From NCBI RefSeq assembly GCF_037038585.1, contig NC_092541.1, positions 5,893,445 to 5,957,444 on the forward strand: a stretch of 64,000 nucleotides of DNA, read 5' to 3'. The translations under genes and the position numbers were made by a program. The notes under the pieces are model-generated. The model was not told the origin of the DNA and searched no databases. It saw only the letters and a list, made by a program, of their open reading frames with translations. Below, piece by piece: positions 1 through 64,000 of the stretch. The stretch comes from Patagioenas fasciata (taxonomy: Eukaryota > Chordata > Aves > Columbiformes > Columbidae). Every line of letters starts with the position of its first letter. Positions within the stretch are counted from its first letter, which is position 1.

Positions 1-130
1 CCCCCAGGGCGGCTCCCCCGCCCGAGCACCGGCAACGATATTGACATTACACCAACCGCACCCCCACATGGATTCAGACCACTGAGTCTACGTGCTGATT
101 CTTCCTTCTGAGCCCTCCGAATGACAAGAG
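1..130 (+). other. 3' flank of an off-window Va1-like V segment
   Basis: The first 60 bases are GC-rich and resemble the sequence 150-230 bp downstream of Va1 segments 3 and 4 (around 25790-25865 and 40500-40575), with small gaps. The similarity then jumps to what matches 27060 onward in copy A. A Va1 V exon therefore probably lies just left of the window, and about 1.2 kb of spacer has been lost here relative to copies A and B. Confidence 0.55.
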
Positions 131-179
131 GAGTTGCCCATGGACAGTTGTCCCGTGCTGGGGGCTGGTTGTGCTCCCC

Positions 180-690
180 AGGAGGGGCAAAAAGCTGTAG
201 TTGATCTCTCCACAGAGCCTCCTCATGGCAAAGATGGGCAGTTCCAAGCACACCTGATGGAAAAGACTCTCCTCTTCATTCCCTCCTGTCAGCTATTTAC
301 ACACATTGCCAGTGTCCCCCCTGAGCCGTCTCTTCCCCAGGCTGTACACTGTCAGCCCTCTCAGCATATTCTCATAGGAAAGATGCTCCAATTCTCACAC
401 CATTTTGCTGGTCTCACTCCAGTATCTTTCTTGTATTGAGGAGTGCAAAAGTGGAGTGAGCACTCAACAGTACTGAGTAGAGAGGATCAGGTCCTTCGTC
501 CTGCTGGTTGACTCTCTTCCTACTGCAGCCCAGGCTGCTGTTGGCCTTCCTTGCCATGAGGGTCCGTTGCCACAGCAGACACAGGAACACCCCAGAACTG
601 CTGAAACTGAGCGGGACACAGCAGCGAGTATTCAGGAGCAGTATCCCAGCTGCTTGTCCAGCTCTTCCTCTTCCCTCAGCATGCACCAGA
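180..690 (-). mobile_element. CR1 LINE fragment, antisense
   Basis: Read on the minus strand this is the C-terminal part of a CR1 ORF2, broken by frameshifts. Recognisable pieces are the segment before the thumb (LMARKANSSLGC) and the cleaved-frame stretch ending near 180. The same insertion is at 27140-27660 and 41860-42390, so it predates the cassette duplication. Edges are approximate. Confidence 0.75.
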
Positions 691-1890
691 GACCACTGTT
701 GGAGAAGAAGACTCTTGGTATGAGACATGACTTCTCCTGTGTTTTTACCTTGTTGAAAAAACAACCAAACAAACAAACAAACAAAAAAACCCCAACAGGT
801 TGGAATCTATGGGCACAGATTATCTCATTCCACACATTTCAAGTGACCCAGGTGCTTCTTTACACCTACCATACATCTGAAAATGAGTGCTCCTTTGGCC
901 AAGCTTTGCCTTTTCTTTTATGCTTGTAGTTTCTCAATCATTCTGAGAAGTGAATGCCACGACAGCATTGCTACAGGTCTTGCAGGGAGACATTTCAGAG
1001 ACTGAACTCAACATGGAGTTTCTCCCCAGAGCCGACTCAGGAGAATCAATTTCCTCTGGGCACAGGAGACTTTCAGCTTCTTAAAGAACTTTCTTGCCTG
1101 AAGAACTCCAGCAAAGGCCACTGTAAGGACAAGTGGAAGGCGAGAGCTGCTGGTTCACTAAGGCTGGCAGATCAAATCCCTTTTCTTTTCAAAGGGAAGA
1201 GCAAAGAAAAGGGAAAGTGATAAACAAAGCACAAAATGACACTGATCTCTCAGTAGGTGATAAGGGAGACAAGGAGGGAGACCAGAGCTCTGCAGCCTCT
1301 AATTGATGGGCCATTGGGAAACTGCAGGTGTAGCTTTGTAGTGGGACAGGCTGAGCTTTGGAAGTGACAGGAAGTGACAGGAAGAACAGGAGGATTTGCA
1401 TGTTTGAGCAGAGTCCTGTGGGACTAGACAACACTTCTTAAGGCATGTGGAGGGGAAGAGTCAAAGGTGGGGGGAAAGAGGAGACTGGGGAGGATCAAGG
1501 GGAGACAATAGAGAGGGGGAAGAATAAAAGGTGGTACCTGCACCTAAGCAGGAGTTGGTCAGTGCAATTGTTGGGGTGGCCCCTGTGCCTGACCACTACA
1601 GCCCCCCCACCTTCTTATTAAATCCTTTCTTAAGAAGGAAAGGGAAAGGTTATGTCAGCCTGGAGACCCTCCACATCTCTAGGAACCTCATTTGAGAACA
1701 TGACGAGGTCCAGCACATCATCTATGAGGACAGGAGATGAGGACTTCACTGCAAGCAGACCAGGAACAGCCCCTTCCCATCATGGCATTCCCTCAGTTAC
1801 CAGGACATCTCCTTTTGGAATTGTTGAGAAATGCTGAATGAGCCACAGATGTTCTTGGTGGAGGAGGGAGAAACCATGAATGAGACTTTC
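691..1890. other. Spacer upstream of Va2 segment 1
   Basis: No gene is recognised. Positions 760-1640 match 27700-28610 in copy A and 42420-43320 in copy B. At about 1640 the match breaks off and resumes near 1765 with what lies at about 30900 in copy A, so this cassette lacks roughly 2.3 kb present in the others. A short direct repeat (GGAAGTGACA twice) lies at about 1362-1383. Confidence 0.5.
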
Positions 1891-1947
1891 AGGCAGAGGA
1901 AGTATAGATCTCTTCCCTTCCCCACTTCTACATTTGCTCCCCCCCAG

Positions 1948-2033: not shown

Positions 2034-3460
2034 ATGCACCTTGGGTACCTGGTCCTCACTGCCTTCCTGGGGCAACTGCTGGGTAGGTCTTTGCTTTCTA
2101 TAAATTCATCCTTCTTCTTCTTCTCCCAAGGAAACTCCCACCAACCTCATCAGGATCATGCAGAGAACTACTCATGATTAAAGGGAAAACACAAGGTAAT
2201 GTCACCTCACATTTGTGTTTTTGCACCAGTTCTCTAAAGATTCTCTTAGTGTTAGAAGGAGAGGAGAGGAGAGGAGAGGAGAGGAGAGGAGAGGAGAGGA
2301 GAGGAGAGGAGAGGAGAGGAGAGGAGAGGAGAGGAGAGGAGAGGAGAGGAGAGGAGAGGAGAGGAGAGGAGAGGAGAGGAGAGGAAAGGAAAGGAAAGGA
2401 AAGGAAAGGAAAGGAAAGGAAAGGAAAGGAAAGGAAAGGAAAGGAAAGGAAAGGAAAGGAAAGGAAAGGAAAGGAAAGGAGGAGATGCCTCTGATCACTT
2501 CTTTCCCTGTTCTCTCCTGTTTGATCAATCACTCTCTGCCTCTCTTTTCTGACCTACGTGCTGTCACCATAGGAGCTCTCAGCTCTCTCTGCACTCCCAC
2601 ATTTCTCCCTTCACAATCCCAATCATTAACAGCAGATCCTGTCAAAGCAGTTACACGGACTTTAAAGCTCTCATCCCATTGACATTACCAAGGTGTCCCA
2701 TTCTACCTCTGGGCTGGTACATGTCTGTCATGACCTCCAGTTTCCTCCTAGTTATTGACACAGACAGGACTCCCTCTTTTGAATATTCAGCTCAGTTGTG
2801 TGTTGACTCAGGAGCCCAATAAATGACAGTGATTGGGAATCAGGATGAATCTTTTTGTCATAACTCTGCAGGCTTCTCAATCTGCTGGGGGTGTGCTGGT
2901 CCCAGCACATGAAGGTCAGGCATGACAGGCTGTTCCCTGGTCCTCTGGGCAGTGGGAGCAGGGAGGAGGACCAGGGACACAGCACAGCTCTCCTCAGAGT
3001 CCAGCTCTAATCTCCTGCCCAGAACTACTCTGCACCTTGTTGTCCCCACACATCAGGATTCTCCTGCGGGGCAAGAGACAAGGAGACTTCTCCAGCAGAG
3101 TTTGGCATTCATTCCTGTTTTGCTTTCCAGAGCCCTTCCCTGCAGAGTTCCTGACCTTCACTTTCTTCCAGGCACCATGGGGCAGGTCACCGTCACCCAG
3201 CAAGAAGGACAAGTCACAGTGAAGCAGAGAGACACCTTCCAAACAACCTGCACATACCAGACACCCACCTTTCAAGGCTTGCTCTGGTACCAGCAGAGGA
3301 AAGGCCAAGCTCCCCAGCTGGTCTCATATCACGCAGGATCTGGACTCAAGCGCAGCGACCGTTTCAGCACAACTCTGAACACCACGGGGAAATACAGCGT
3401 CCTGCAGGTGGAGGAAGTCGAGGTGTCTGACAGTGCCTTGTACCTCTGTGCTGTGCAAGA
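2034..3460 (+). CDS. TRAV: T-cell receptor V segment, Va2-like, segment 1
   Basis: This germline V segment encodes the variable domain of a TCR alpha chain, or possibly delta since the loci share V genes. Exon 1 (2034-2082) encodes a 16-residue leader starting [11 protein letters not shown] and ends in phase 1 before donor GTAGGT. Exon 2 (3172-3460) follows a TTCTTCCAG acceptor. The mature domain begins GQVTVTQQE. It has the first Cys in TTCTY, the core Trp in [10 protein letters not shown], and the second Cys in ALYLCAVQD, where the coding part meets the RSS. It is open throughout. CDR1 (TPTFQG) differs from the other two Va2 copies (TSNFYG). The 1.1-kb intron carries a long purine microsatellite the other copies lack. 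There are no J or C exons; it becomes part of a gene only after rearrangement. Confidence 0.9.
2259..2481 (+). repeat. (GAGGA)n-(AAGGA)n microsatellite
   Basis: About 25 tandem GAGGA units switch at about 2384 to about 19 AAGGA units. It is a pure purine run of about 220 bp inside the Va2 segment 1 intron. Va2 segments 2 and 3 have only a short purine stretch at the equivalent place. Confidence 0.97.
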
Positions 3461-3499
3461 CACCCTGGTGCAGGGAGCTTCCTTGGCTGTGCAAGAACC
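3461..3499 (+). promoter_or_regulatory. 23-bp-spacer recombination signal, Va2 segment 1
   Basis: Heptamer CACCCTG (3461-3467), a 23-bp spacer (3468-3490) and nonamer GCAAGAACC (3491-3499) directly follow the V exon. The heptamer matches the consensus CACAGTG at 5 of 7 positions and the nonamer matches ACAAAAACC at 7 of 9. A 23-RSS on the V side is what TRA and TRD V segments use. Confidence 0.88.
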
Positions 3500-7230: not shown

Positions 7231-7533
7231 TCAGCGCAGGTACCTTCTGCCAAAGTAGCGGCTGGAAATGCCAGAGAGGTCACAGCAGCCAGAGTTGATG
7301 GGCACTCCATCACAGCTGAGGATGCTGCCAACAGCAGCAGAGGTGGAGGAGCCCACAACGGTGTTCTGTGGGAAGGAGCTGAGGATGGGTCCAGGCAGGG
7401 TCACCACCACAGGGGAGGGCTCGATGACAACGGTGGAGTTCTGGCACTGCCTGACACAGGGCTCATTGCAGCTGTTGGCCAGTGGGGTCGGACCACAGGG
7501 CTGGCAGGGCAGGCACTGGTTGTAGCAGGACAT
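7231..7533 (-). CDS. Feather beta-keratin 1
   Basis: A 100-residue feather-type beta-keratin (corneous beta protein), a structural protein of feather barbs and barbules that polymerises into 3-nm filaments. The Cys-rich N-terminus (residues 1-30) starts [13 protein letters not shown]. The conserved beta-sheet core (about 38-62) includes [20 protein letters not shown] Ser/Gly/Cys-rich tail ends GRRYLR, not the Cys-terminated tail I recall for chicken feather keratins. The coding exon is preceded by acceptor CTCTCTCACAG and a leader exon near 7917-7950. ATTAAA on the minus strand at 6909-6914 is a possible polyadenylation signal. Everything needed for expression appears present. Confidence 0.93.
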
Positions 7534-7914
7534 TTCTTGAGGGTGGATATGAAGCTGTGAGAGAGAGCAGGGAGAAAGCAGAGCATAGAAGTGTGTGAGA
7601 AGCAGCCTGGTTACCCTGTCAGAAAGAAGCCAAGGCCACTACTGAGTGGGGAGCTGGAAGCTGTGCCAGGAGCCACACAGTCTTCATGACACTAAAAGGA
7701 GCAGCCTGGCACAGAGAGGCTCTCTCTCTCCTACTGAATACACCAAAAGCCACCTCTGCCACCTCCCAGCCTCTTCCTAAGCAGAACATTTTCCCACTCC
7801 CCTCTCCCTAGACAAGAAGAGGCGATTCACAGGAGAGATCATAGACAGTATCAGCTGAGATGTCCATTGATGAGAGAAATGCCAAATTGGAAGAGGAGAA
7901 GAGGTTTCAGACTC

Positions 7915-7983
7915 ACCTGGTTCCTGGGAAGAAGGAGCCAAGAGAAGTGGATGAGAGAGTAAGACCCTGGGCTGCCTTTTATA
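7915..7983 (-). promoter_or_regulatory. Keratin 1 promoter and non-coding exon 1
   Basis: On the minus strand a TATA box (TATAAAA) occupies 7977-7983. Transcription would start about 25-30 bp later, near 7950. The non-coding first exon ends at 7917, with donor GTGAGT at 7916-7911. A non-coding first exon followed by a single coding exon is the standard layout of feather keratin genes. Confidence 0.75.
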
Positions 7984-9919: not shown

Positions 9920-10973
9920 ATGCGGCGGTGCCGGGGCGCAGGGCTGGCGGGACTGGCCGCGGTGCTCCTGGGTGCGCGGGGCTGGCGGGGCTGGGTGGGG
10001 GCCGGGTCTCAGCCTGGAGCGTTCCCAGGGGACCTCAGCACCAGCTCTTCCCTCTCCTTCAACGTGTCCTTTCCCTCTCTCTGCCTCTCTGACATCTTTT
10101 ATGATCCTTTCCCACCCCTCCACGTCCCCCCTTCCTGTTCTCCCTCTCTACTCTTCCTCTCTTCTCCATTGACCTACTCATCTTTGGACCCATCTCTCCA
10201 TGCGTCTACTATCTCTTCATGATCCCCTCTTCACACTCTCTGAAACGCCTTTCTCATCTGTTCCCTCTGCTTTTTTTACATCTGTAGGCATAAGTTTGCT
10301 TTCCTGCACTGCACCATACATCATGCTATTCCTCTGTTCATTTAGCAATTATTCTTCTTCTGAATTCAGCCCTCCATGTTTCACTGCAACACACCAAAAT
10401 CTCCCATCGCCTTTCCCTGTCACCTTTCATTCATCTGTGCACATGACTGTCATTTGGTCTCTCAATGCATCAGTTTCAGATTCCATGCCAGCCTTCTGTC
10501 CTTGCTCAACAGACCCACACAAGTATAATCTGCCAACCATGTCAAGGAGTATATTTTCCCCAATTCTTCCGGTCTCGCTCTCTGTCACTGACACTGTTCC
10601 TAAAGATTTCTCTTGGGAAAGTGCCATCAGACCTGGGTGATCTTCGGTGATCTTTGGTCTTTCCTTCTCCTTTCTCTGCAGTGGCCGGAGCCAGAGCTCA
10701 GGTGCAACAGGACCTGTCAGCAGAGACCACCGAGGACACCGGCATCAGCATCAACTGCTCACACCCCAACATACAGTCAAACGAGGTCATTTACTGGTAC
10801 CGTCAGCTCCCAGGCCGAGGCCCCGCGTTCCTCGCACTCGGTCACAAAGGCTCCAAAGCGCTGTCGGACCCACCGGGTTGGCTGTCGGTGGCGGCAGACC
10901 GCCGGTCCAGCGCCCTGTGGCTCTCCCGGCCCCGGCGCGGGGACGCGGCGGTGTATTACTGCGCCGTGGGAGA
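9920..10973 (+). CDS. TRAV: T-cell receptor V segment, Va1-like, segment 1
   Basis: Germline TCR alpha (or delta) V segment. Exon 1 (9920-9971) encodes leader MRRCRGAGLAGLAAVLL and ends in phase 1 at donor GTGCGC. Exon 2 (10682-10973) follows acceptor TTTCTCTGCAG. The mature domain begins AQVQQDLSAETTED. It has the first Cys in INCSH, Trp in YWYRQLPGR, and the second Cys in VYYCAVGD. Framework 3 (GWLSVAADRRSSALWLSRP) is GC-rich and shared with the other Va1 copies, while CDR1 (IQSNEV) and CDR2 (LGHKGSK) vary. The frame is intact. Unlike the other Va1 copies, the conserved 5' flanking block is missing, so expression after rearrangement is doubtful. Confidence 0.9.
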
Positions 10974-11012
10974 CACGGGGAGAGGAGCCGGGGCTGCGGC
11001 CGGGCACGAACC
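10974..11012 (+). promoter_or_regulatory. 23-bp-spacer recombination signal, Va1 segment 1
   Basis: Heptamer CACGGGG, a 23-bp GC-rich spacer (10981-11003) and nonamer GCACGAACC (11004-11012). The heptamer keeps the essential CAC and matches the consensus at 5 of 7; the nonamer matches at 6 of 9. The element is identical in Va1 segments 2 and 4. Confidence 0.85.
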
Positions 11013-31090: not shown

Positions 31091-31094
31091 CCAG

Positions 31095-46915: not shown

Positions 46916-46920
46916 ACCAG

Positions 46921-49810: not shown

Positions 49811-50199
49811 TCACCCCAAGGAATCTATGTAGACATTCTGTTTTCTAGTGGGAGCTGGTCAGTTCCTTCTGCTCATGTTGTGTAATGAACTGGTACTTGT
49901 GATAGCAAGTGTCCTGTGTCTGCTTGATCAGGAATGAACTTCACAGTTCTCTTTCCTTAATGTGTCCCCTTGGAAGCTGTATGCCCCAGTCTCCAGGAAG
50001 GAGACACCAGGCAGCCAGTGACCCGAACCCATAGTAGGAGCTCCTGAGCTTCTAAATTTCAGGTATAACTGGGTAGGCTAAGCCGAGAAAGCAAGAGCAG
50101 GGAGGCAGGAGTGAGGATGACCCAGACCGAGCCTTGGTCAGGCAGTGCCCACACCAGCAAGGTGCAGGGGTGCAGAAGCCTGCGAGAAGCTTTTATGAC

Positions 50200-50545
50200 C
50201 TCATTCTCTGCTGCAGGACAAAAATGGAGGGGCACGAGCAAAGTAGGACATGGATGGGGTGTATGGAGGGCAAATTTTTGATGCAGGCAATCCATGAATG
50301 GAACAGGGGAGAGGCTGTGTTGGACATGGTACTCACAAATGAAGAACAACAGTTGGATGATGTACAGTTCAAGGGCAGCCTTGCCTGCACTGGCCAAAAG
50401 GCTGTGGAGCTCAAGATCCTGAGAGCACTGACCAAGACAAACAGGACGACTACTGCCCTGGACTGCAGAAGAGCCCATCAGTCTTGTCTGGGACCTACCT
50501 GCTTGGCAGGGTGCAATGGGAAATGGTCCTGTAGTGCAGAGGACA
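50200..50545 (+). mobile_element. CR1 LINE ORF2 middle fragment, copy B
   Basis: Duplicate of 34370-34720, with the same MQAIHEWNRGEAVLDMVLTN stretch. Confidence 0.75.
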
Positions 50546-51055
50546 CCAGGAGAGCTGGATGCCCCTCAAGAACATCCTCCTCAGAGCACAAGGATGGTCC
50601 TCTGCAATGTGGCAGCAGGGTGACACTGTGGGGTGCAGCCACAGCCCCATGGGGACACACATCCCCAAAACCCAGAAACCTACAGGCACAATCGTCCCCA
50701 CTGCAATCTGAGCAGATATAAAGGAATATTTTCCCCAACTGGATATTAAATCTTTCCTGCCAATGGATCGTGGCCTGTGACATATCAGAGTGTTCTTGGA
50801 GCCCATCCCAAGCTGTAAGCAGCTGGTACCTTCCTGGCTGCAAGGTTAGAAAGACTTTCTGAGACAATTTTTTCACCTTTCCCTCACCCTGACTTTGTAG
50901 ATACTCATCATTTTATTCTTGGGGTAATGGGGCAGATTTCCATGAATTAGGGTTACTTCTGCCCTGGTACCCAGCAGAGCCATAACTTGTAGTTTATGGT
51001 GTTGGGCCCACAGGGTTACAAGCAGAACATAAGGATCATGTTTATTTCCACCTGT
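50546..51055. other. Spacer, copy B, up to the provirus
   Basis: Near-identical to 34721-35235. Non-coding. Confidence 0.45.
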
Positions 51056-51060
51056 ACCTG

Positions 51061-51822
51061 TGTGGCAGAATGCAAACCCCCCTCTCTCCCCCCTCCTCCT
51101 TCAATATGGAGGGAGTAGGCACATCTCCCTGTCTCTGCTACTTGAGGCTGACGGCTTCTTTTGTTTGGCCCAGAGCACCCTGGCTAGGGCCATTAGGAGA
51201 AGGGAGTGCCGAGGCGCCAGTGAGCCGCTGGGCGCCTGTGACCAGTGTGGGGGGATGTTTGGAGGCTTCAGGGGCGCCCCACACACGGTGTGGGGGTGCA
51301 GAGAAGCTTCTAGAATGCCTACAGTCAGGTCTGATCAGCCAATAAAAACGGGACTCTCGTCGAGACTGAGCCAGTTGTTGCCGGTCTCTCGGAGCTACGA
51401 GCAAGATTCTGCTGCTGAGACCCCTCCTCCCCGGGATGGAGACCCCGCTTGCCTTGCCGCCACTTGCGTAAGTAAAACACTCGCACAATTGCGAGTGTAT
51501 TATAAATTTACACTCGCGGAATCGCGAGTGTACGCTTTACCTTTATCTCTCTAAGAATAATCCAGAAACCGGATTCAGGCAAGTGTGTACTCCTCTGGGA
51601 CTCGAGGGTGGTTCCAGCATAGTTTTGGGTGAAGCCACGTGTATGTACTCTGTGGACCTCCTGTTGTACTAGTTGTTACCCCTTAATAATTTTCCTCAAC
51701 TGATACCCGAACCTATATTTAAGTCACTTTTGGAGTGTTAAAACCCTGTTTCTCACTGGTTTAATAAAAGTTGTTCTGGACCCTGTTGTCCCTTAAATCA
51801 GCCTCGGGGTGCCTCCGTGACA
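51061..51822 (+). repeat. 5' LTR of the provirus
   Basis: 762 bp from TGTGGCAGAA to GTGACA. A CCAAT box is at 51339-51343, TATAAAT at 51501-51507 and polyadenylation signal AATAAA at 51763-51768. This implies U3 to about 51530, R to about 51785 and a short U5. Confidence 0.93.
51477..51531. promoter_or_regulatory. Paired palindromes flanking the LTR TATA box
   Basis: Two dyads of the form ACACTCGC-N6-GCGAGTGT occupy 51477-51498 and 51510-51531, 33 bp apart start to start, with 11 bp containing TATAAAT between them. All 16 arm bases pair in both. The 3' LTR has the same arrangement at 57297-57318 and 57330-57351. They may be operator-like binding sites or RNA/DNA hairpins; the function is unknown. 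Confidence 0.9.
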
Positions 51823-51826
51823 ATTT

Positions 51827-51844
51827 TGGCGCAGCGAGCAGGGT
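51827..51844 (+). other. Probable primer-binding site
   Basis: TGGCGCAGCGAGCAGGGT begins 4 bases after the 5' LTR. TGG complements a tRNA 3' CCA end, and the position fits a primer-binding site. I cannot assign the tRNA from memory. Confidence 0.6.
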
Positions 51845-51851
51845 ATCAGAT

Positions 51852-54800
51852 ATGGAGGAATTATTTAGAGGGTTGTTTAATGTCTCTGCAGTAACCTGGG
51901 GTCTTGCCGTAATGTGGATCGCGGTGTGTTTCAGTTTGGGTGTTTGCTTAAAGGTAGCACAGGATTTGTGTAAAATTAAGCAGCGAATGGAGGAAAACCT
52001 TTCGCGGGAAAGTGAAAAGTTTGACTCTCTGATACAGGACTTTTCTCGGCAAAGCATACGGTCGGATTTGTTAGAACAGAGATTGGGCTTGTTAGAACAG
52101 AAACTTGTTTTTTTGGAACAAAAACTTGAGTTTTTGTTAATTAATATGAGAACTTCCTCTAGCGTCTCCCCAGTTCAGGTGTGCCCCTCGGCCCCCCCGT
52201 TTCTCGACAAAGATACTGATTCTGAAAACAGTGTTGATGAAGGGGGGGTAGAAACAAAGGACGTGCGTCCTCTTATTAGAACTGAAACACATACGGATGG
52301 ACGAGGCAAAAATCCACGCACGGCTACCCATAGCACGCCATATTCAGGACTGGAGCTAAGAGATTTACAAACTAGATTCTCACGCAAGCCGGGCGAGACA
52401 GAGACTGAATATCTTTGGCGCGTTTCACTTACCGGGGGTGATAGGATATTATTGAGTAAGGACGAGGCCACAGGCTTCTGGGGCCCAGGGGTATTTTTAA
52501 GTGATGGTCTGGATGGTAATCACTCCATCACATCTCGTGTAGCTTACTGGGCTGGCGGTATAGATCCCAGGGAACGTGGGGAGCCAGTTGCAATTGTTGT
52601 AAAAGGCTTATCAGATCTTGCTGAGGGAGTTCAAAAGGCGGCTTGTATACAAGCAATGTATGAAAAGGGCCGGCAGTCCCCCCCTATAGCGGCGCCGGTG
52701 GATCCGGTCCACCTTCGGCTGCTTATTAAAGGATTACCGGATGCCTTAAAAATATATGTCCAGTCCCTTAAGGAGAAAATTCAGGGGACTATTGATCATA
52801 ATAAGCAAAATCCCCGAAGTCCTCCTGAACATGTATTAACCTGGGCGGAAATTTTACACAATGTGGTTACACATGGGCGCGAGATGGGGTGGGTAGACCC
52901 AAGCGGCGGCCCGTGCAGAAGCCGGACGGTCCGGAAGACGAGCCGAGCCGAGCCTCTTCAGAGGCCGCCCCCCCCGTCCCAGAAACCGAAGCGTTTTGGC
53001 TGCCGGTCAGATCAGAGCAGCAGCTTGCAGCAGAGCAGCCTCTGGCGCCGCGCGGCTGCTCTGGGTGTGCCCCGAACACTGCTATATAAGCTTTCCACCG
53101 AGCACCTACAGGAGCTGGTGGAATACTTAGAGGGAAGATCAGAGAACAAAGAGGAGGCACCGGTAACCGTCCCCCTCCCTGAGGACAAGCGAAACATTAA
53201 CCCTTTCGTATCCTCACAAAGGGAGCCAAAAAAACTAGTAGAAGCGGATGGGAAGCAGGACCGCCCCACCCGCTTTGTATTTTCTTGCCAATGGTCCAGT
53301 GATAAAGAACCATACATACATATCCCCGTTGGTCCAAGGCGAATAAGTGTGAAATTTCTAATTGACACAGGCGCACAAATCAGTGTTTTGAACAGGCGGC
53401 AAGCTGACAAACTTGGGATTAAACCATCAAGGAAAGCCATCAATATAGTAGGGGTAACAGGTGTAGCAGAGAGATGTCCTTTAGCTCGAACCCACCTTTT
53501 GCTACCTGGGGAAAAACGGACAACAGCTGTGGAAGTTGCCCTGAGTCCTTATAAGGCAAACATATTGGGATTTGATATTTTGGCAGGTAGACGGTGGTGC
53601 TTACCTAATGGGGAGATTTGGAGCTTTGGAAGCCACAGAGCGGAGGTAGCCCGTATTAGAATATTGCCACTTACCTCTGCACCCTTGCAGTTCGAAAGAA
53701 CTACTGATGTTAGGATTTTGCAACTTGCTCCTGCTCTACCCACATCTACAATAACCTGTACTCCACAGTACCCCCTGCCAAATGCAGCAAAACGGGGCAT
53801 TACGGAGGTTATTAATGATCTTGAAAAAAGACAAATAATTAGCTGCACCCATTCTCCCTATAATTCTCCAGTTTGGCCCGTTCGCAAGCCTGATGGGCGA
53901 TGGCGCCTAACTATTGATTATCGAAAACTGAATAGTAACACTGCACCACTAACAGCTGCCGTCCCAAACATAGCCTCAGTGGTGACTGTAATACAAGCAG
54001 CAGCCCACCCATGGATGGCTGCTTTAGATGTTAAAGATATGTTCTTCATGATTCCCCTAAGGGAAGAAGACAAGCCACAATTTGCTTTTACCTGGGAAGG
54101 GAAGCAATACACTTTTAATCGGCTTCCTCAGGGGTACAAACACTCTCCTACTATTGCCCACAATGCCCTTGCTGCACTCATTGACACTGTACAGGTACCC
54201 TCAGGCATTTGCATATATCAATATATAGATGACATCTTAGTGGGTGGAAACAATAAGGAACAGGTGGGGCAAGTAGCAGAAACTCTTTGGAATTTATTAA
54301 CACAGAACGGATTAGATATTCCACCGTCCAAGTGCCAGGGTCCCAGCCAGAAAGTTAAATTCCTAGGGGCTTGGTGGATAGGAGGAGCCATAGCAGTGCC
54401 TGATGATGTTCTGGCTACTATAGACAAGGGACACACCCCAAACAGCAAAGCGGACCTACAATGCCTGTTGGGTACATTAGGGTACTGGAGAAAACATATC
54501 CCAGGATTCTCGGTGATTGCCCGTCCCCTATATGACCTACTCCGAAAAAACAAGAAATGGAATTGGACTCTACAACATACAGAGGCCCTTAATGTTCTAA
54601 AAGATGAACTTAAAACCTATCAGAAATTGGGCCCACTACATCCACAAGACCCATTGAGAGTGGAATGGGGGTTTGCAGAACATGCCTCCTATTGTGCCAT
54701 ATTCCAAAGGGGTCCAACAGGGCCAGCTAGACCTTTGTTGTTCTCTTCCACCGCATTTAAGGGAGCTGAACAACGATATTCGGAGTGGGAGAAGGGGCTT

Positions 54801-56408
54801 CTCTCACTTAGCCGAGCAGTTAAGGAGGCAGAGAAACTGTGTACGTCACAGGAAGTTATTGTACAAGGCCCTTTCCCTCTGTTGAATTCAATCCTTAAAG
54901 GGTTACCACCCCCTGAGGGGGTGGCACAGAAAGCAACAGTACAAAAATGGTACGCCTATTTAGAGGGAGTTAGCCAATTGTTACTACTAAAGGAGGGTTC
55001 TGTAAAAGTTTCAAAACTTCAACAACCTGTGAACGCTGATCCGGTCCTGTTGAGCCTGCCTTATAAACCCTCTCCTATTAAAGAAGCACCTAAGCTAACT
55101 CAGGACTCAGACACACAAGGAGTCTGGTTCACTGATGCATCAGCCCATCGGGTAGGGACAAACTGGCAGTACAAGGCAGCAGCATTGGAGATTGCTACTG
55201 GAAAAAGAATAACAGAGGAGGGGGAAGGTAGTGCTCAAGTAGGAGAACTGCGTGCTCTTTTATTAGCAGCAGAAGGAGGAGCCTCCATGATTTACACTGA
55301 TTCCTATGCAACCTATAAGGGTGCCACTGAATGGATATGCCAATGGGAATCTAACCAATGGGAAGTAAATCGCACCAGAGTGTGGAGAGCTGAAGATTGG
55401 CAAAGACTATTAGAAATTGGCAGGTCACGACCTTTGAGTGTGGGTTGGGTAAAAGGACATGCAAAGGATGGAACCCTCGCTGCCAAATGGAATCGACAAG
55501 CTGACTTTCTAGCCCAGATCAGGCTGGCTGAAAGCATACCAGAGGAGTGGGCACGGTTAGCTGAATGGTTACACCTTAAGCGAGGCCATTCTGGAAAAGC
55601 AGATCTTTATTACGAATGCCGATCCCGGGGTTGGCCAGTGTCCATGGGAATATGTGAAGCAATTCTCACAGCCTGTCCACAATGTCGGATCAGACTTAAA
55701 GCTGATCACCCAAATCAGGCCCCGGCCCTACATATCAGGCAGGACAAGACTCTCTGGAGCACGTGGCAAATTGACTATGTCGGGCCACTGAGACCCTCTA
55801 ATGGAAAGAAATACATCCTGGTGGGGGTAGAGGTAGTATCAGGATTATCAATGGCCACTGCTGTCAACACGGCCACTGGAGATCAAACCGTGCAAGCGCT
55901 GTGTGGGTGGTTTGGTATCCTACCCACTCCTGAGAATATCCAGAGTGATAATGGCACACACTTTTCAGCTGCCGTGGTTCAAGACTGGGCTAAGGGAGAA
56001 GGTATTAAGTGGGTGTTTCATACACCATACTATCCCCAAGCCAATGGGATCGTGGAACGAACCAATGGTTTGATTAAGAAGTATGCAGATGTATCACGAC
56101 ACAACTGGGACAAGCGATTAGCACAAGCTGTCTTCCTTGTCAATAACCGCTGGGGAAGCTATGGGAGCCCCAAAATCAGGGCGTTCTGTCCTGAAAAGCC
56201 ATTGACAGACAGCAACTTGACAACCAACACAGAGGAAGAGCATTCCTCAAAAATACAAGTGGGCCAGCCTGTCATGGTGAAATTACCATCTATTGGTATT
56301 GTACCCATGACTCTAGCAAAACCCAGAGGGTTATATGCCTGGGAAGCCCTTGATGAGAATGGGAAAACCCACCGTATTAGTGCTCGGTGGATAGTTCCAG
56401 ACTACTAA
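51852..56408 (+). CDS. Proviral Gag-protease-polymerase, single open frame
   Basis: 1518 residues with no frameshift or stop between gag and pol. I chose the ATG at 51852, the first after the primer-binding site; the in-frame ATG at 51771 is inside the LTR. In order: a hydrophobic segment (about 14-36, WGLAVMWIAVCFSLGVCL); a coiled coil of repeated LEQ-L heptads (about 50-97); Gag-like sequence to about 360; a basic, Pro-rich linker without CCHC knuckles; aspartic protease with DTGA at 505-508; reverse transcriptase with LPQG at 758 and YIDD at 791-794; RNase H with TDAS near Asp1095; integrase with a His/Cys finger and catalytic Asp1308, Asp1366 and Glu1402 (35 residues between the last two). 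All catalytic residues are present, so the enzymes may still be active. How Gag and Pol amounts are balanced without a frameshift is unclear. Confidence 0.93.
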   Translation: MEELFRGLFNVSAVTWGLAVMWIAVCFSLGVCLKVAQDLCKIKQRMEENLSRESEKFDSLIQDFSRQSIRSDLLEQRLGLLEQKLVFLEQKLEFLLINMRTSSSVSPVQVCPSAPPFLDKDTDSENSVDEGGVETKDVRPLIRTETHTDGRGKNPRTATHSTPYSGLELRDLQTRFSRKPGETETEYLWRVSLTGGDRILLSKDEATGFWGPGVFLSDGLDGNHSITSRVAYWAGGIDPRERGEPVAIVVKGLSDLAEGVQKAACIQAMYEKGRQSPPIAAPVDPVHLRLLIKGLPDALKIYVQSLKEKIQGTIDHNKQNPRSPPEHVLTWAEILHNVVTHGREMGWVDPSGGPCRSRTVRKTSRAEPLQRPPPPSQKPKRFGCRSDQSSSLQQSSLWRRAAALGVPRTLLYKLSTEHLQELVEYLEGRSENKEEAPVTVPLPEDKRNINPFVSSQREPKKLVEADGKQDRPTRFVFSCQWSSDKEPYIHIPVGPRRISVKFLIDTGAQISVLNRRQADKLGIKPSRKAINIVGVTGVAERCPLARTHLLLPGEKRTTAVEVALSPYKANILGFDILAGRRWCLPNGEIWSFGSHRAEVARIRILPLTSAPLQFERTTDVRILQLAPALPTSTITCTPQYPLPNAAKRGITEVINDLEKRQIISCTHSPYNSPVWPVRKPDGRWRLTIDYRKLNSNTAPLTAAVPNIASVVTVIQAAAHPWMAALDVKDMFFMIPLREEDKPQFAFTWEGKQYTFNRLPQGYKHSPTIAHNALAALIDTVQVPSGICIYQYIDDILVGGNNKEQVGQVAETLWNLLTQNGLDIPPSKCQGPSQKVKFLGAWWIGGAIAVPDDVLATIDKGHTPNSKADLQCLLGTLGYWRKHIPGFSVIARPLYDLLRKNKKWNWTLQHTEALNVLKDELKTYQKLGPLHPQDPLRVEWGFAEHASYCAIFQRGPTGPARPLLFSSTAFKGAEQRYSEWEKGLLSLSRAVKEAEKLCTSQEVIVQGPFPLLNSILKGLPPPEGVAQKATVQKWYAYLEGVSQLLLLKEGSVKVSKLQQPVNADPVLLSLPYKPSPIKEAPKLTQDSDTQGVWFTDASAHRVGTNWQYKAAALEIATGKRITEEGEGSAQVGELRALLLAAEGGASMIYTDSYATYKGATEWICQWESNQWEVNRTRVWRAEDWQRLLEIGRSRPLSVGWVKGHAKDGTLAAKWNRQADFLAQIRLAESIPEEWARLAEWLHLKRGHSGKADLYYECRSRGWPVSMGICEAILTACPQCRIRLKADHPNQAPALHIRQDKTLWSTWQIDYVGPLRPSNGKKYILVGVEVVSGLSMATAVNTATGDQTVQALCGWFGILPTPENIQSDNGTHFSAAVVQDWAKGEGIKWVFHTPYYPQANGIVERTNGLIKKYADVSRHNWDKRLAQAVFLVNNRWGSYGSPKIRAFCPEKPLTDSNLTTNTEEEHSSKIQVGQPVMVKLPSIGIVPMTLAKPRGLYAWEALDENGKTHRISARWIVPDY

Positions 56409-56880
56409 CCCTGAAAGCCCGGTTCCTCTTCAAGGACCGAGGTCTGTTCTTGTGTTTTCTTGCAGGGCAAAGGACAATGACGGGGTGGAAGAGGATCCAG
56501 ATGCCTTGGAAACGAAACGACACCAGCAATGACGGGGTGGAAAGGGATCCAGCTATCACCAGCAAGAGATGGAAGAGAATCCAGATGCAAGCCATTCAGA
56601 AGGAAGGCAGTCACAGGAATGGAAACACTAACGAACTGTGACTGATGTTTGGGACTCAATAATTACCTTGGGCAATTGTTGATTGTTCTAATTATTTCAA
56701 TTCTATTGTTGATTGTTATTAATAACTGCGTTGCAGGGGTAAGTCAACCCATGAGATACGGTGATCCACAGTGGACATTAAGGCTCACCGGCAGAAGTGT
56801 CCCCTTTTTACTTTGGAGGCAAGAGGTGACTGCACCACCACTCCAAAGTATCAGACCATGACTGTAGTCACGGGGTGGAT
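56409..56880 (+). other. Post-pol region without env
   Basis: Only 472 bp separate pol from the 3' LTR, too short for env, and no envelope-like sequence is seen. Positions 56475-56590 hold three degenerate repeats of a unit like AATGACGGGGTGGAA..GGATCCAG. A hydrophobic-coding run (LLIVLIISILLLIVINN in one frame, about 56676-56727) might be a remnant membrane segment. A weak polypurine stretch (ACGGGGTGG) precedes the 3' LTR. Confidence 0.6.
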
Positions 56881-57642
56881 TGTGGCAGAATGCAAACCCC
56901 CCTCTCTCCCCCCACCTCCTTCAATATGGAGGGAGTAGGCACATCTCCCTGTCTCTGCTACTTGAGGCTGACGGCTTCTTTTGTTTGGCCCAGAGCACCC
57001 TGGCTAGGGCCATTAGGAGAAGGGAGTGCCGAGGCGCCAGTGAGCCGCTGGGCGCCTGTGACCAGTGTGGGGGGATGTTTGGAGGCTTCAGGGGCGCCCC
57101 ACACACGGTGTGGGGGTGCAGAGAAGCTTCTAGAATGCCTACAGTCAGGTCTGATCAGCCAATAAAAACGGGACTCTCGTCGAGACTGAGCCAGTTGTTG
57201 CCGGTCTCTCGGAGCTACGAGCAAGATTCTGCTGCTGAGACCCCTCCTCCCCGGGATGGAGACCCCGCTTGCCTTGCCGCCACGTGCGTAAGTAAAACAC
57301 TCGCACAATTGCGAGTGTATTATAAATTTACACTCGCGGAATCGCGAGTGTACGCTTTACCTTTATCTCTCTAAGAATAATCCAGAAACCGGATTCAGGC
57401 AAGTGTGTACTCCTCTGGGACTCGAGGGTGGTTCCAGCATAGTTTTGGGTGAAGCCACGTGTATGTACTCTGTGGACCTCCTGTTGTACTAGTTGTTACC
57501 CCTTAATAATTTTCCTCAACTGATACCCGAACCTATATTTAAGTCACTTTTGGAGTGTTAAAACCCTGTTTCTCACTGGTTTAATAAAAGTTGTTCTGGA
57601 CCCTGTTGTCCCTTAAATCAGCCTCGGGGTGCCTCCGTGACA
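56881..57642 (+). repeat. 3' LTR of the provirus
   Basis: 762 bp, identical to the 5' LTR except at 56914 and 57284. Polyadenylation signal AATAAA is at 57583-57588. Confidence 0.93.
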
Positions 57643-57647
57643 ACCTG

Positions 57648-58982
57648 TCCCTCTCCCCATGCTGAAGAGGGGACAACCCTTCCCTGGGCTTGTTTGCAGG
57701 GAAGGGAGGATGCCACTCTGTGCACCCCCTGCCCCATGGCTCCTCCTCACCATTTTGTGCCCAGACCCCTCTGGGGTGCTGAGTCTGCATCTCACACAGG
57801 GCTGCTGCTTCAGCTCCAAACGTCCCCATGTTCACTATAAACACAATTGTAACAGCATTAACATAGCATGAGTTTTCCTTATTTTTTCTTTGTTCTACCC
57901 TGTGTTTCCTGAAATAAGTTCATTCTTCAGGTGGGCTGGGACATTCAGCTAATTCCTCCTCACTTTCTCAATTCACCAGGAAAACCACCTGGCCAAGTGT
58001 CCTATGACAGCCCTCCATGCCTGTGTGTGGGGCCAGCCAGGCATTTGGTCTCTTCTTCACTATCCTTTCTCTACAAAGGCATTTCCCACTGGGACCTGCT
58101 GACTACACCAAGTGTTTTGCACCAGGAGCTGCTGCTTTGTTTAGATTCCCTGACTCTCCTTAAATATGAAGCATGATGTTAATGGGATGGAATACTCTTA
58201 TTGATCAGTTTGGATGTCAGTCAAGCTCTGTCCCATCTATGCCCGCCTTCCTCGATGCCTCACACCTGTGGGCAGAGCACAGAGAATGTCCTTGGCTCTC
58301 AGACAAGAGCAATTTAAAATGTTAACTCTGTGCTGGGGTTGTTATCTCTTGTTCTCAAATCAAGTCCAAATAATGACTGTACTAACTATGAAAAAGAAAG
58401 GTTTCTAACTGCATGGAGAAAATTAACGTATTTTCAGTCAAATCAGCACAGCTATGAAGAAAGAGAAGGCAGTAGAGATGATTCTATATCCTTCAGATGC
58501 CAGGAGTCCCAAGCTATAATATGTGCTGTCAAACAGGCAGCTCCAATCAGGGCACACCACAACACATGGATCCTGCTCATGGAAGTGTGATTTTTGGTCC
58601 ATCAAGCCTTTAGAAGATTTTTATAAAATAAAATATCTCTATTCATAATTTCTGCTATGAAACAGGAAAAGTGTTCGCATGAGAACTTCTTACTACATTT
58701 TAGACACAGGCAAGGACACCCAGAGAATGTAACCACAGGCACGGAGCAGGAGCTGCCTCCAGGCTCATCAGTTACAATGGGTTGGATCAATTTTGCCTCT
58801 GGTCGAGGGATCTGTGCAGTGCAACATTGCCCTGAAGGGCAAGCTCTGCATATAGCACAGCACAGCAGAGGACAAAGCCTCCACAGTAATCTGTCATATG
58901 GATCATTAACTCCTTGATGTTCGGGGATCTCTGGCTGAGGGTGATGGCACCCTGACAGTTGTTTTCATCATGAGGACAAATA
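57648..58982. other. Spacer, copy B, after the provirus
   Basis: Resumes copy A sequence (35246-36581), near-identical. No gene recognised. Confidence 0.5.
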
Positions 58983-59196
58983 TCAGCTCTCGGACCTGCT
59001 CAGAGCAGCTTTCACATCCTTGTTTCTTGGGGTCTACATCAAGGGGTTGGGCAGGGGATTAAGAACCCTGTAAAGAATGGCCACTGCTCTGCCTGGTTCA
59101 AGGCAGCTTCCATGTAGGTGAACAAATATGGGCCATAGAAACAGGCCACAGCAATGAAATCAGAAGCACAGGGTGAGACAGCTCAGTGCCTGCATT
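58983..59196 (-). pseudogene. Olfactory receptor remnant, C-terminal part, copy B
   Basis: Duplicate of 36582-36795 with the same premature TAG (59036-59034), so the gene was already dead before duplication. Confidence 0.82.
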
Positions 59197-59339
59197 CTGC
59201 AAAGCAGAGCCACAGGGTAATTTAAATCACCATTAAATAAAACAACCTCAGGCAACAAGGACCACAACTTGAAGTGGAAAACCTGCATGGATCCTGTATT
59301 CCTTTCCCACCGTTTCAAGATCTCCTCAGTTGCGCAGTC

Positions 59340-59640
59340 AAGCCGGGGGTCATGCTAAGAGCCAGTGGCAGCACTCTAGCAGTGCTTTGCAGAAGGGCTT
59401 ACTCGTCTGTCAGGATACTGTCATTCCTCCCTCTTCATCAAGGACAATTACAGATGGTACCATCAATGTGAAGGACTTGAAGTACCTTGCAGTTGTTACA
59501 AGATTTAGTGCAATAAGGTTAGGAAGTGCAACTCTTCTGCTTTTAAAGACAGATATTAAGAGAACAACTAGGGGGGAAAGATTTCAGACATGCAAGTGAA
59601 ATGCCCTTGTGAAGCTTTTGGCATCAGAGATATGCTTCAT
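59340..59640. other. Unassigned conserved block, copy B
   Basis: Third copy of the block at 5640-5940, keeping ITDGTINVKDLKYLAVVTRF on the + strand. Confidence 0.4.
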
Positions 59641-60179
59641 GAGCCTTAATTCCCTTTTGCATGAAGAACATGAGTGTACAGATTTCCATCTTTCCACCTG
59701 CACAGTAGAAAAAAATAGAGAAGGATCCCCTTGTGCCCTCACCCCCTTCCACTCCAGAGTATCACGCTGCTTCTTTGGCAGATTGGGGAGTTTCCACACA
59801 GGGAAGGACCACATAGAGGCCAGAATTCAATGCAGCAGAACTTTAATGCATAAAAGAGAGAAACAAAGTCACTGCAAGTGGAGGACAGCAGTGCAGGAAT
59901 CCCCAGAGGAATCCACAAGTCTGCAGTCCATGGTCATTAAGAAGTTTGTGCATGGTGTTCATCTGCCTGCCCCATAGAGGGAGAGAAGACAGCTGATCCC
60001 CAGCAGGCTGGACCTGGGGGAACCTTGTGGCCAAGAGGAACCAAAGGAAACAAAGAAAAAGGTAAAAAAGGTAAAGCCATTCAGCTCTACTGAAAACACA
60101 GCCAGTATCTCAGTCCTTTGTCCAGCACCATGTTTTTAGTTCCTTAAGGTGTCTCCCTGGGCCCTTCCCAGATTCTTTA

Positions 60180-60482
60180 TCAGCGCAGGTACCTTCTGCC
60201 AAAGTAGCGGCCGGAAATGCCAGAGAGGTCACAGCAGCCAGAGTTGATGGGCACTCCATCACAGCTGAGGATTCTGCCAACAGCAGCAGAGGTGGAGGAG
60301 CCCACAACGGTGTTCTGTGGGAAGGAGCTGAGGATGGGGCCGGGCAGGGTCACCACCACAGGGGAGGGCTCGATGACAACTCTGGAGTCCTGGCACTGCC
60401 TGACACAGGGCTCATTGCAGCTGTTTGCCAGCGGGGTCGGGCCACAGGGCTGGCAGGGCAGGCACTGGTCATAGCAGGACAT
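60180..60482 (-). CDS. Feather beta-keratin 4
   Basis: Intact 100-residue feather keratin. The N-terminus [20 protein letters not shown] and [11 protein letters not shown] are the closest here to the classic chicken pattern. The core [19 protein letters not shown] and tail [13 protein letters not shown] are kept. Acceptor TTCTCTCCCAG lies 24 bp before the ATG, and the non-coding exon and TATA box are in place at 60858-60924. This is the copy B partner of keratin 3 and has everything needed for expression. Confidence 0.94.
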
Positions 60483-60857
60483 GTCTTGAGACCGGAGGTT
60501 CACCTGGGAGAGAAGGCAGGGAGAAAGCAGAGCATAAAAGTAGATAAGAAGTAGCCTGGTTACCCTGTCAGAAAAAGCATGCAAGGCCACTACTGAGTGG
60601 GGAGCTGGAAGACATGCCAGGCGGTGCACAACCTTCACTGCCCTACAAGGAGCCTCACAGCACAGGGCAGCTCTCAGTGAAAAACCAAAACGCCCCTCTG
60701 CCACCTCCCAGCCTCTCTCTAAGCAGAACTTCTCACCCCTTCCATCTCCCATGATAAGGAGATGCAAAGCTGAGGAAAGGACACAGCCAATATGAGCAGA
60801 GATGTCCATCAGTAACAGATGTCAAGTTGGAAGAGAATCAGAAGGGACTTCATACTT

Positions 60858-60924
60858 ACCTGGTTCCCAAGAGGAAGAAGGCAAGAGAAATGGATGAGAG
60901 CAGGGACTTGGGCTGCCTTTTATA
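60858..60924 (-). promoter_or_regulatory. Keratin 4 promoter and non-coding exon 1
   Basis: TATAAAA on the minus strand at 60918-60924; exon 1 ends at 60860 with donor GTAAGT. Matches the keratin 1 layout. This element lies in the part deleted from copy A. Confidence 0.75.
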
Positions 60925-62444
60925 CCCGCCCTTCATTGCCACAGGACCAGAGGTACCCTTGGCAGAGGTAACAATTTTCGGACAAGCTCATCTTGAATGC
61001 AAACATGTGGGCTGTGCTTTAGCTTCCAACACTGCTGCCTTTTCATTTCCAGGTTTGTGCCATGCTCATCCTCCAATGAAGGCTTTGTTTGATCTCTGGG
61101 ATTAAAGGTCCCTGGATTTCTCAGGCAGGAATGCAGCAGTGCAGACAGAAGACTCAGTTCAGGTGCTGCACGGGTCTAAGAGAAGGCAAATGATGTCATT
61201 CTGGGTCACTCTCTGTTCTTTGATATACCAGTCTCAGGAAGAAGCTGAAGCCATAATCGACTGCATGCCCTTGTGCTCCCATGCATGAGGATGTCACAAG
61301 TCCTCATCTTTCCTTAACTTCTCAGCTCACCCTGATGGTTTTTGTGAGCATTGTGTTGCTTGAATTTGACACCATCCTGCCTAACGCTGCCCCAGGAGTC
61401 ATCAGCAGAGTACACGAACTTCTCTTAATGTGATGGTTCATGGTGTTGCTATCTGTGTTCTTTTCCTGTGTATACTTGCAAGCAGCCAAGTTTGTGCAGA
61501 TGGACATTTGTGTATAATTGCACACTGGTGTGCATGAGTCTAAGTATGGATGTCCTTGTCTGTCAGTCATCACAACAAAACGTGCGGTTCACTGCAGAGA
61601 CACTCTCTATTGCTCTGTCCATGAGCACCACAGAGCAGGAGGTTCCCAGGGCCTAAAGGAGCCCCAGTGCAGCTGAGTGATGTTTGCAGCAGCCTGCCAG
61701 AGATCTGCCCAGGGAAGAGAAATGCAGCCCCTGTCTCCTGAGCCCTCCTTCTCCTGCCTGTCCAAACCTCTTGCTTCCCTGCTGTTGTTTCCAGCTCATA
61801 ACAAGAATGATTTCAGTCCAGTTTGAATCCTTGGTTTCACTCCGTGTAACAACATTTGATTTGTCTCATCATGGCTGGCAGTCTCCCCTCCCTGCATCTC
61901 CAGGCCAGGAAACAGCTGCTCTCCCCAGCACTAGAGAGTTCAATACGAGGGGTTTGCTTTGTGGGCAAGGAGGAAGGCTGAGGAATCCTGTCGACCGTGT
62001 GCTGGCCATCCCTGAGGGGACCTCCTTCCAATGCACTCTAGAATGTGTCTGAGATGGCATAGAGCCCAATTTCATGCACAAGTCAATGCCAATGTGCAGT
62101 AGATTGATCAGGTCCTATGTCAGACAAGAATTATGGCCTTCAATCAGAGAGCTACTGACTGAAGGGAACATGGAGTCTGATGCTGCTGTGCTGTGAGTAG
62201 AAAGACAGACTGTGTAGCTTCCACTGGGAAAGCCAAAGAACAGGTGGATGCTTTGGACTTCAGATCACACTGACCATTACATCTTGCATCACAGTTTCAG
62301 TCTTAGTGTCCAGGAACTGCACATGGAAGGGAAGGAACATGAAATTCAAGAAAACATCCCCAAAACACAGTTGTTGTCCCTCTTTCTAACAAGGTCTGTT
62401 CCCAGCAAGCACTTTTCTGAAGCCTCCACTCCTGACTGTTTGTC
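60925..62444. other. Keratin 4 upstream flank
   Basis: Related to 7984-9299 and 21218-22889. Non-coding, no gene recognised. The whole stretch is absent from copy A because of the 2119-bp deletion. Confidence 0.45.
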
Positions 62445-63640
62445 AGCTGCAGCTCAGTTGAGGGCTTTCTGCCTTCCCTTCTGTGACCTCAGTGAAATCA
62501 ATGCCAGGAGCTCTGCTGGGAGAGCTCAGCCAGGGCTGATTTGCCCTCTCCATGAAGCTGCTTTGAGCTGAGGACAATGGGCCAAACCCATTGCTTTCTC
62601 ATGAGGTAACAGGCACTGTGGACATGGAAAGGGCAGGGATATCTGTACTTGGAGCTTAGCAAGACCTTTGGCAGTTTCTCTCTTACTTCTTTCATGACCA
62701 AGTATGAGATGAATGGGTGCAGTGAAAGGATGATAAGGTGTGGAGAAAATTGCCTGGACTAACAGGCTCAGATGGTTATGACCACAGTGCAAAGCTCAGC
62801 TGCCCAACACTTACTGGTGGGGTGTAATAGTAGGGATCCAGTAGTAGAACCAATACTGTTTGATGTTTTAATGAATCCCATGAGTCATGGGAAGCGGGGA
62901 ACTCCCAGAGACTCTGTGGATAACACCCAGCAAGGGGAATGGGTCATAACGGTTGGACATGGCTCCTGGTCAAAGAACCTGAACAGTCTGAAGAAGTGGG
63001 CTGACTGGAAACTCATGGATGCCAAAAACAGCAAGGGCAAGGTTCTGCATGTGGGGGAGTAACCAGCTAGTTCATGGAGTCATGTAGGCTAGAACTGGCT
63101 GCCTGGGAAGCAGATCCACAGAAAAGGATGTGAGGTTTCAAGGCTGATCCATCTGACTATGAGACAGCAGTGTGCCCTAGCAGCAAAAGGACCAGCTGCG
63201 TCCTGAGCTGTGTTAATGTTTTGCCAGCAGGTACAAGAACACGACCCTTTCCATCTGGTCCATTTGAGATAATATGTGGAGTACTGCTGCCAGACTGGGG
63301 CTCCCTGGTCAAGGAAGGGTATCAACATATGGAAGTGAGTTCAACAAGGCCACTGTACATGTTAGGCAGCTGATGAACATGACATGCAAGGAGACACTGA
63401 GAGAAATGGGTGTCTTCATCTTGGACAAGAGATGTCTAGAATAATTTCTTGCCTTCTGTAACTGCTTGTACAGAGGAACACAAGAAGATGCACATGGCCC
63501 GTGTAAGTGCCCAGGAGACAGACTTGGTGCAATTTCCATCCTCTGAGATGCTAAAGAATGGACTGAATGTGACCTTGAGCAACAGGATCTACTGGGATCT
63601 GTGCTGAGCAGAGGAGTGACCTAGATGACTTCTGAAGGTC
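62445..63640 (+). mobile_element. Old CR1-derived block before the next Va1
   Basis: The most complete copy of the diverged CR1 block. It shows the LSKTFGSFSLTSFMTKYEM-like part (62660-62715), the SLKKWADWKLMDAKNSKGK part (62988-63040) and the following fragments. From 62744 it is near-identical to 38034-38930. Confidence 0.72.
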
Positions 63641-63744
63641 CCTTCTTACCTACATTCTGACTCCGTAATTCTCCTCCTCAACTACGCACAGTGACACCTG
63701 CACGGCCATGAGCACATGTGTCCCCACACCCCTCTACCACAAAC

Positions 63745-64000
63745 CAACTTTCAGTCATAGTGCTGGAAGTACACAGAGGCAGCTGAAGGGAGGCTCTCAG
63801 CCTCCTCACTGCCAACCGCAGGAAATCAGTGGCTGCTGTTTCCAGCCCCTGAGCTCGGAGACAGCTCTGGGAAGCTGGTCCAGGAGCCGAAGCTGTGGCC
63901 GTGCAGAGCCCCGGAGCCCTGTGAACTCGGGCGAGATCCCGAGCGGCGCAGGCGCAGGACTCAGCCCCAAGGCGGAGCTTGCGGTGGAGAGGAGAAGAGG
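63745..64000 (+). promoter_or_regulatory. 5' flank of a further Va1 segment, cut by the window end
   Basis: Matches the promoter-like block of Va1 segments 2 and 4, including AACCGCAGGAA at 63814-63824, though about 85 bp (the CCATGTCCTGG to CTGGAGGA part) are missing near 63880. It ends in the start of a purine tract, so a Va1 leader ATG is expected within about 200 bp to the right. Confidence 0.65.

Follow-up and report, generated by a model that had tools for sequence, protein, structure and literature searches.

A columbid T cell receptor alpha/delta variable-segment array that probably grows by unequal crossing-over and copies feather keratin genes with it

Why do feather keratin genes lie among the variable (V) segments of a T cell receptor (TCR) locus, and are the two families copied together? 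The question is raised by a 64,000-nucleotide stretch of Patagioenas fasciata (NCBI RefSeq assembly GCF_037038585.1, contig NC_092541.1, positions 5,893,445 to 5,957,444 of the forward strand), referred to below as the window. It contains seven TCR-alpha-type V segments on the plus strand, four V1 (TRAV1-like) and three V2; the minus strand bears four feather beta-keratin genes. The window is very probably a columbid TCR alpha/delta V array that expands when V1 segments cross over unequally, with a V1-V2-keratin unit being copied.

Tandem V1-V2-keratin units

Self-alignment divides the window into older partial units (A, B, and C), two full units (E and F), and the start of a further one (G; Table 1). 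The boundaries agree with the original prediction, which placed complete cassettes at about 24-38.9 and 39-63.6 kb and partial ones before them. The predicted order, V1, V2, olfactory-receptor (OR) remnant, keratin, stands in part: V1-V2-keratin, with the keratin on the opposite strand, is present in both E and F, whereas the OR remnant is found in C only and, within the searches made, does not belong to the recurring unit. Five blocks of E and F align by self-BLAST: E 25321-28684 with F 40026-43401 (94.4%), E 28676-35237 with F 44518-51061 (97.5%), E 35238-37279 with F 57643-59680 (98.5%), E 37277-38036 with F 59863-60624 (95.5%), and E 38035-39183 with F/G 62742-63882 (94.7%). Over the bodies of the two units (E 26.25-37.28 kb), 236 of 10,989 aligned positions are different (2.1%, or 97.9% identity); the older units match E or F in BLAST pieces that are roughly 67-89% identical. 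E is not a plain copy of F, as the two differ by a CR1-like insert, a long terminal repeat (LTR) element, a 2.1-kb deletion, and unlike V1 leader introns. With avian sites substituting at about 2e-9 per year, E and F would have split, very roughly, 5 million years ago, and the LTR element would be less than 1 million years old.

It is extremely improbable that the keratins were inserted separately near the V segments, with no shared duplication. Feather keratins do occur at several chromosomal places in birds, according to the available passages of PMC2894828, but the homology between units spans V, non-coding spacer, and keratin alike. The keratins of A, C, E, and F all occupy the same relative position on the same strand, and the upstream flank (60.6-63.5 kb) recurs in A, in C, and partly in B; for A, C, E, and F, these shared flanks already contradict separate insertion.

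The V segments resemble TCR alpha segments in several respects. The Cys, Trp, and Cys of the V-set domain are present in all seven translations, as read by eye, and Pfam V-set matches one V1 at 1.6e-6 and one V2 at 6.7e-9 (one copy of each was submitted). A recombination signal sequence (RSS) with a spacer of exactly 23 bases lies 3' of each of the seven, with weak heptamers (CACGGGG in V1 and CACCCTG in V2, five of seven consensus letters). A separate leader exon (MRRC...) was located in all four V1 but not in V2. Protein searches with V1 of C and V2 of E (120 of 383 and 120 of 376 matches listed) have avian TVA4 and TVA11/TVA12 as their best matches, and most of the matches listed are avian proteins with these names or that of T cell receptor alpha variable. 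The top solved structures are TCR alpha chains for both V1 of E (6lir_A, 2.8e-39) and V2 of E (8v4z_D, 1e-20). V2 was located by tblastn at 3153, 32068, and 47893, slightly upstream of the exon starts in Table 1.

A hybrid V1 gene and the site of exchange

The V1 genes record two conflicting histories. The leader intron pairs B with E and C with F (75 informative sites versus 7 and 5 for the other groupings; 1000 of 1000 bootstraps). In the 3' flank, B groups with C and E with F (96 informative sites versus 5 and 5; 1000 of 1000 bootstraps). The distance from the leader start to the V exon has a long form (761 bases in B, 856 in E) and a short form (548 in C, 531 in F). The leader introns of E and F are 41% identical. 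Along the two units, identity is 0.49-0.64 in the leader intron and 0.89-1.00 in 250-base bins beginning where the V exon ends. Therefore, judged from its sequence, the V1 of F is a hybrid whose history switches within the V1 gene, between the leader intron and the 3' flank. Such a pattern would be expected if two V1 genes on either side of a V2-keratin body had crossed over unequally. With the exchange placed in V1, the keratin would have been carried along. The original prediction that the two families are copied together is borne out to this extent: both lie in one homology unit, and the exchange of the newest copy maps into V1.

Within the V1 exon, nucleotides 187-300 show 0-6 differences among the four copies versus 29-40 in nucleotides 1-186 (Fisher p 2e-3 to 2e-8, six pairs), and a near-identical stretch of this kind would suit crossing-over. 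The same stretch (e.g., 10867-10980) is 76-77% GC in all four copies and looks like a conversion tract.

The 97.9% identity of the E and F bodies would also fit two haplotypes of one locus that the assembler misplaced in tandem, in which case the real array has fewer cassettes. However, E and F have only distantly related V1 leader introns (F goes with C and E with B), which is predicted by unequal exchange and not by plain alleles. In addition, the older units A and C show V-keratin interleaving independently of E and F, and V segments and keratins are linked in other species. We consider the haplotype explanation improbable.

Several observations weigh against the array growing by V1-V1 crossing-over in a TCR locus. 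The intron grouping is not repeated in the leader exon (6 informative sites; best split B and F from C and E, 606 of 1000 bootstraps) or in exon nucleotides 1-186 (10 informative sites; best split B and C from E and F, 891 of 1000), and nucleotides 187-300 hold no informative site for grouping. With little signal in the first two stretches and none in the third, the switch is placed no more closely than between the leader intron and the 3' flank. Upstream of V1, F and G are 0.82-0.91 identical, below the ~0.98 expected from one shared event, and G is nearer to C (0.95-0.99 over ~150 bases); therefore, a later conversion must be assumed. Copy numbers are not locked, as B and C lack V2 and B lacks a keratin. 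As to the locus, a few of the V1 protein matches listed carry immunoglobulin lambda names, and the V1 structure list below its first row mixes antibodies with TCR alpha chains. No joining (J) or constant genes were identified in the window, none having been searched for by profile, and the locus name rests on similarity.

The start of G (63731-63882) is 98% identical over 152 bases to C 14916-15067, ~49 kb away, and F is 89% identical to that copy. The likeness of G to C suggests conversion at a distance.

In the mechanism that we favor, V1 segments would cross over unequally and the array would grow in this way. What is repeated would be a V1-V2-feather keratin unit, with the keratin on the opposite strand; each duplication of a V pair would passively copy a keratin gene, and the units would afterwards decay individually. 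The exchange would have been a meiotic unequal crossing-over rather than a conversion. Keratins A and F may be expressed in skin, and V-to-J joining in T cells would be expected to delete the keratins between the chosen V and J. The predicted drag of one family's growth on the other would hold at duplication, but losses uncouple the two (there are four V1, three V2, and four keratins, and among the last only those of A and F look complete); the copy numbers of the two families may be correlated among birds. The original prediction also set skin-type promoters in T cell chromatin, which would be a further consequence; the TATA box and exon-1 anatomy seen in three of the four keratins does not bear on chromatin.

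Keratin genes, homogenization, and linkage in other birds

All four keratins contain the Pfam Keratin domain (PF02422; E-values 4e-34 to 2e-38); three are 100 amino acids long and that of C is 126. A feather beta-keratin gene has a TATA box, a non-coding exon 1, an intron, and a coding exon 2. The TATA box and exon-1 anatomy is seen in A, C, and F and is gone from E, where the 2.1-kb deletion (F 60625-62741 is missing) took the promoter and exon 1 and left the coding frame intact. E and F thereby offer a natural promoterless keratin copy beside a complete one. Keratin C keeps the promoter anatomy, its C-terminus is longer and altered, and no poly(A) signal is found in the 900 bases examined. 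Only two of the four, A and F, look complete by these sequence features.

The top-ranked relatives of the keratins, in a search of 5.8 billion proteins (best 120 of 1416 matches listed), belong to Columba, Caloenas, and Patagioenas. One listed protein, P0003, borne on a 9.48 Mb contig, is identical to keratin F. In a protein tree of 113 rows (the window's 4 keratins plus 109 of the 120 matches listed, 11 being too short or lacking the start motif), there are too few columns to tell whether V-linked keratins form a clade: the 6 linked rows need 3 changes, and 256 of 500 shuffles are as low. A search of viral contigs returned no keratin relative. The one match in genome contigs, in an Acidobacteria metagenome-assembled genome (46% over 39 residues), was judged to be chance.

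Between the old units, the flanks have diverged far more than the keratin, V2, and part of V1. Away from exons, the non-coding distance between A and F is mostly 0.27-0.40, falling to 0.20-0.22 in two stretches on the 5' side; positions 726-1048 could not be aligned. The A-F distance in keratin is 0.041 in the coding sequence, 0.080 on the 3' side, and 0.157 in the promoter and exon-1 block; in V2 it is 0.036 in the exon and 0.09-0.15 on either side. Low-divergence islands extend 240-330 bases past V2 and the keratin stop. This likeness of the keratin, V2, and part of V1 suggests gene conversion together with purifying selection. Purifying selection alone would also keep keratin and V exons more alike than flanks. 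Ratios of nonsynonymous to silent divergence (dN/dS) are 0.27-0.53 for keratin (six pairs) and 0.14-0.29 for V2 (three pairs), both in its favor, as is the conserved keratin promoter block; for V1, dN/dS is 0.45-1.17 (six pairs). However, the silent divergence (dS) of keratin is 0.096 between A and F and 0.043 between A and E, versus 0.27-0.40 in most A-F non-coding stretches, the islands run beyond the V2 and keratin ends, and V1 nucleotides 187-300 are far less diverged than nucleotides 1-186. We think selection without conversion less likely, though a serious rival, and favor the two acting together.

Linkage was examined among keratin rows comprising 29 species-contigs of 26 species, all named, on contigs <150 kb, and among the best 120 of 1416 matches; rows with no name or contig, or with longer contigs, were dropped. 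Rows from the two V searches were tabulated for the keratin species and some others, and the remainder was checked by eye. A contig was taken to be the same when species name and contig size were identical, which gives proximity rather than gene order. In six of the ten species common to both lists, a single short contig (11-86 kb) bears both keratin and V: Caloenas nicobarica (Columbiformes; 86,191 bases), Pterocles burchelli (Pterocliformes; 56,082), Rostratula benghalensis, Pedionomus torquatus, and Glareola pratincola (Charadriiformes; 11,016, 21,557, and 21,064), and Spizaetus tyrannus (Accipitriformes; 20,456). No common contig is seen in the other four, Bambusicola, Corythaixoides, Phaetusa, and Tauraco, among the matches listed. 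At least 6 of the 29 keratin species-contigs are linked, a floor since only the longest contig per cluster is shown. The occurrence of keratin and TRAV on a common contig in six further bird species, from four orders, makes an artefact of one genome unlikely, and the interleaving is probably not a product of one assembly.

The cassette was also predicted to contain an old CR1. A reverse-transcriptase profile match supports that label in A, whereas Pfam gives no match for the CR1-like pieces at 43.2-44.4 and 34.3-34.9 kb; these pieces, and with them the insertion in F, are presumably CR1 from the look of the sequence. The two LTRs of the F element differ at 2 of 763 positions. The element has one long open frame of 1546 codons, gag-pol-like by eye, and <500 bases between this frame and the second LTR, which leaves no room for an envelope gene. 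The OR fragment of C matches only itself when searched by tblastn against the whole window, and Pfam scans detect no OR in A 3.5-7.2 kb (plus frames), B 11.0-14.9 kb (plus frames), or E 32.5-37.5 kb (six frames); these scans took in the stretches named, and neither the rest of E nor F, whose body has 97.9% identity to that of E. Short GA-rich tandem repeats in A and C (2198-2547 and 15196-15515) give low-complexity long open frames on both strands.

Table 1 Positions of units, genes, and other features in the window
Feature	Position	Strand	Details	Evidence
Unit A			older partial unit, cut by window start; V2 and keratin	
Unit B			older partial unit; V1 alone, no V2 or keratin	
Unit C			older partial unit; V1, OR fragment, keratin; no V2	
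Unit E	23842..38826		V1-V2-keratin	self-BLAST
Unit F	38827..63526		V1-V2-[LTR element]-keratin	self-BLAST
Unit G	63527..64000		start of further unit; region found upstream of V1 in other units	self-BLAST
V2 of unit A	3172..3499	+	exon 3172-3460, 23-spacer RSS 3461-3499	tblastn, V-set, acceptor
V1 of unit B	9920..11012	+	leader ATG 9920, V exon ~10681-10973, RSS 10974-11012	V-set 1.6e-6
V1 of unit C	15509..16388	+	leader ATG 15509, V exon ~16057-16349, RSS 16350-16388	tblastn
V1 of unit E	24486..25673	+	leader 24486, V exon ~25342-25634, RSS 25635-25673	tblastn
V2 of unit E	32087..32414	+	exon 32087-32375, RSS 32376-32414	tblastn
V1 of unit F	39521..40383	+	hybrid by grouping; leader 39521, C-like intron, V exon ~40052-40344, RSS 40345-40383, E-like 3' flank	
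V2 of unit F	47912..48239	+	exon 47912-48200, RSS 48201-48239	tblastn
Keratin gene A	7231..7983	-	TATA 7983-7975, donor GT 7916, coding 7533-7231 (100 amino acids), ATTAAA 6915	Pfam Keratin 7.8e-38
Keratin gene C	20414..21217	-	TATA 21217-21209, donor 21147, coding 20794-20414 (126 amino acids)	Pfam Keratin 3.6e-34
Keratin E coding sequence	37594..37896	-	intact, 100 amino acids; promoter and exon 1 deleted, edge ~38036	Pfam Keratin 4.2e-36
Keratin gene F	60180..60924	-	TATA 60924-60916, donor 60859, coding 60482-60180 (100 amino acids), ATTAAA 59847	Pfam Keratin 1.6e-38
OR pseudogene fragment	17698..18012	+	unit C	7tm_1 1.9e-8, 7tm_4 3e-6
CR1-like insertion	43393..44526		in F alone; short GGTGCC target duplication at ends; E has the empty site at ~28676	self-BLAST
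LTR retroelement (endogenous-retrovirus type)	51061..57642	+	young; short ACCTG target duplication at ends; E has the empty site	

Meaning of the array and its relation to known systems

The number of feather keratins and the size of the TCR repertoire are usually treated as separate adaptive stories. If the two form one array with one crossover site, part of the variation of either family could be a by-product of the other. The array would also be a concrete case, at the sequence level, in which the locus seems to grow on V segments themselves and not on transposons. A broader proposal, which we find tempting and nevertheless doubtful, is that chromosome-27-type keratins and TRAV form one array in much of Neoaves. 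Exchange between V1 segments would then set keratin dosage, selection on the T cell repertoire would drive keratin number and the reverse, and T cells would delete keratins on TCR alpha rearrangement.

Chicken TRA/TRD lies on chromosome 27, with recurring TRAV1/TRAV2 pairs and growth by homology units, in the available passages of PMC10972964. The present window is similar in the TRAV1 motif QVQQ of its V1, in homology units with both V families, and in its weak RSSs, which are found in most chicken TRAV1. The V1-V2 start distance is 6.7 kb in E and 7.8 kb in F, versus ~2 kb in chicken. The word keratin is absent from the text available of that paper. Chicken chromosome 27 also carries an array of 61 feather keratins, with an array on zebra finch chromosome 27 too (PMC2894828), and copy-number variation at chicken chr27:30-930 kb has been attributed mainly to feather keratins (PMC2375447). 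This array is of the same protein family, is large and tandem, and in chicken shares a chromosome with TRA; the available passages of the two papers do not place keratins among V segments. The arrangement of keratins in a TCR locus was not found in the literature consulted; this included few subscription papers, and the absence is weak evidence of novelty.

An unrelated gene in a TCR homology unit is already known. Trypsinogen genes lie in bovine, human, and mouse TRB (PMC2685407), and a duck TCR-beta unit with PRSS2 and a Vb1 is present in three copies (PMC5278385), as far as the accessible parts of both papers go. The resemblance to the window is that a non-immune gene of unrelated kind sits between V segments; in duck, this gene also shares a tandemly duplicated homology unit with a V. 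Unlike the trypsinogen systems described there, the present unit joins TCR-alpha V segments with a feather keratin on the opposite strand, and the exchange site is traced to the V gene.

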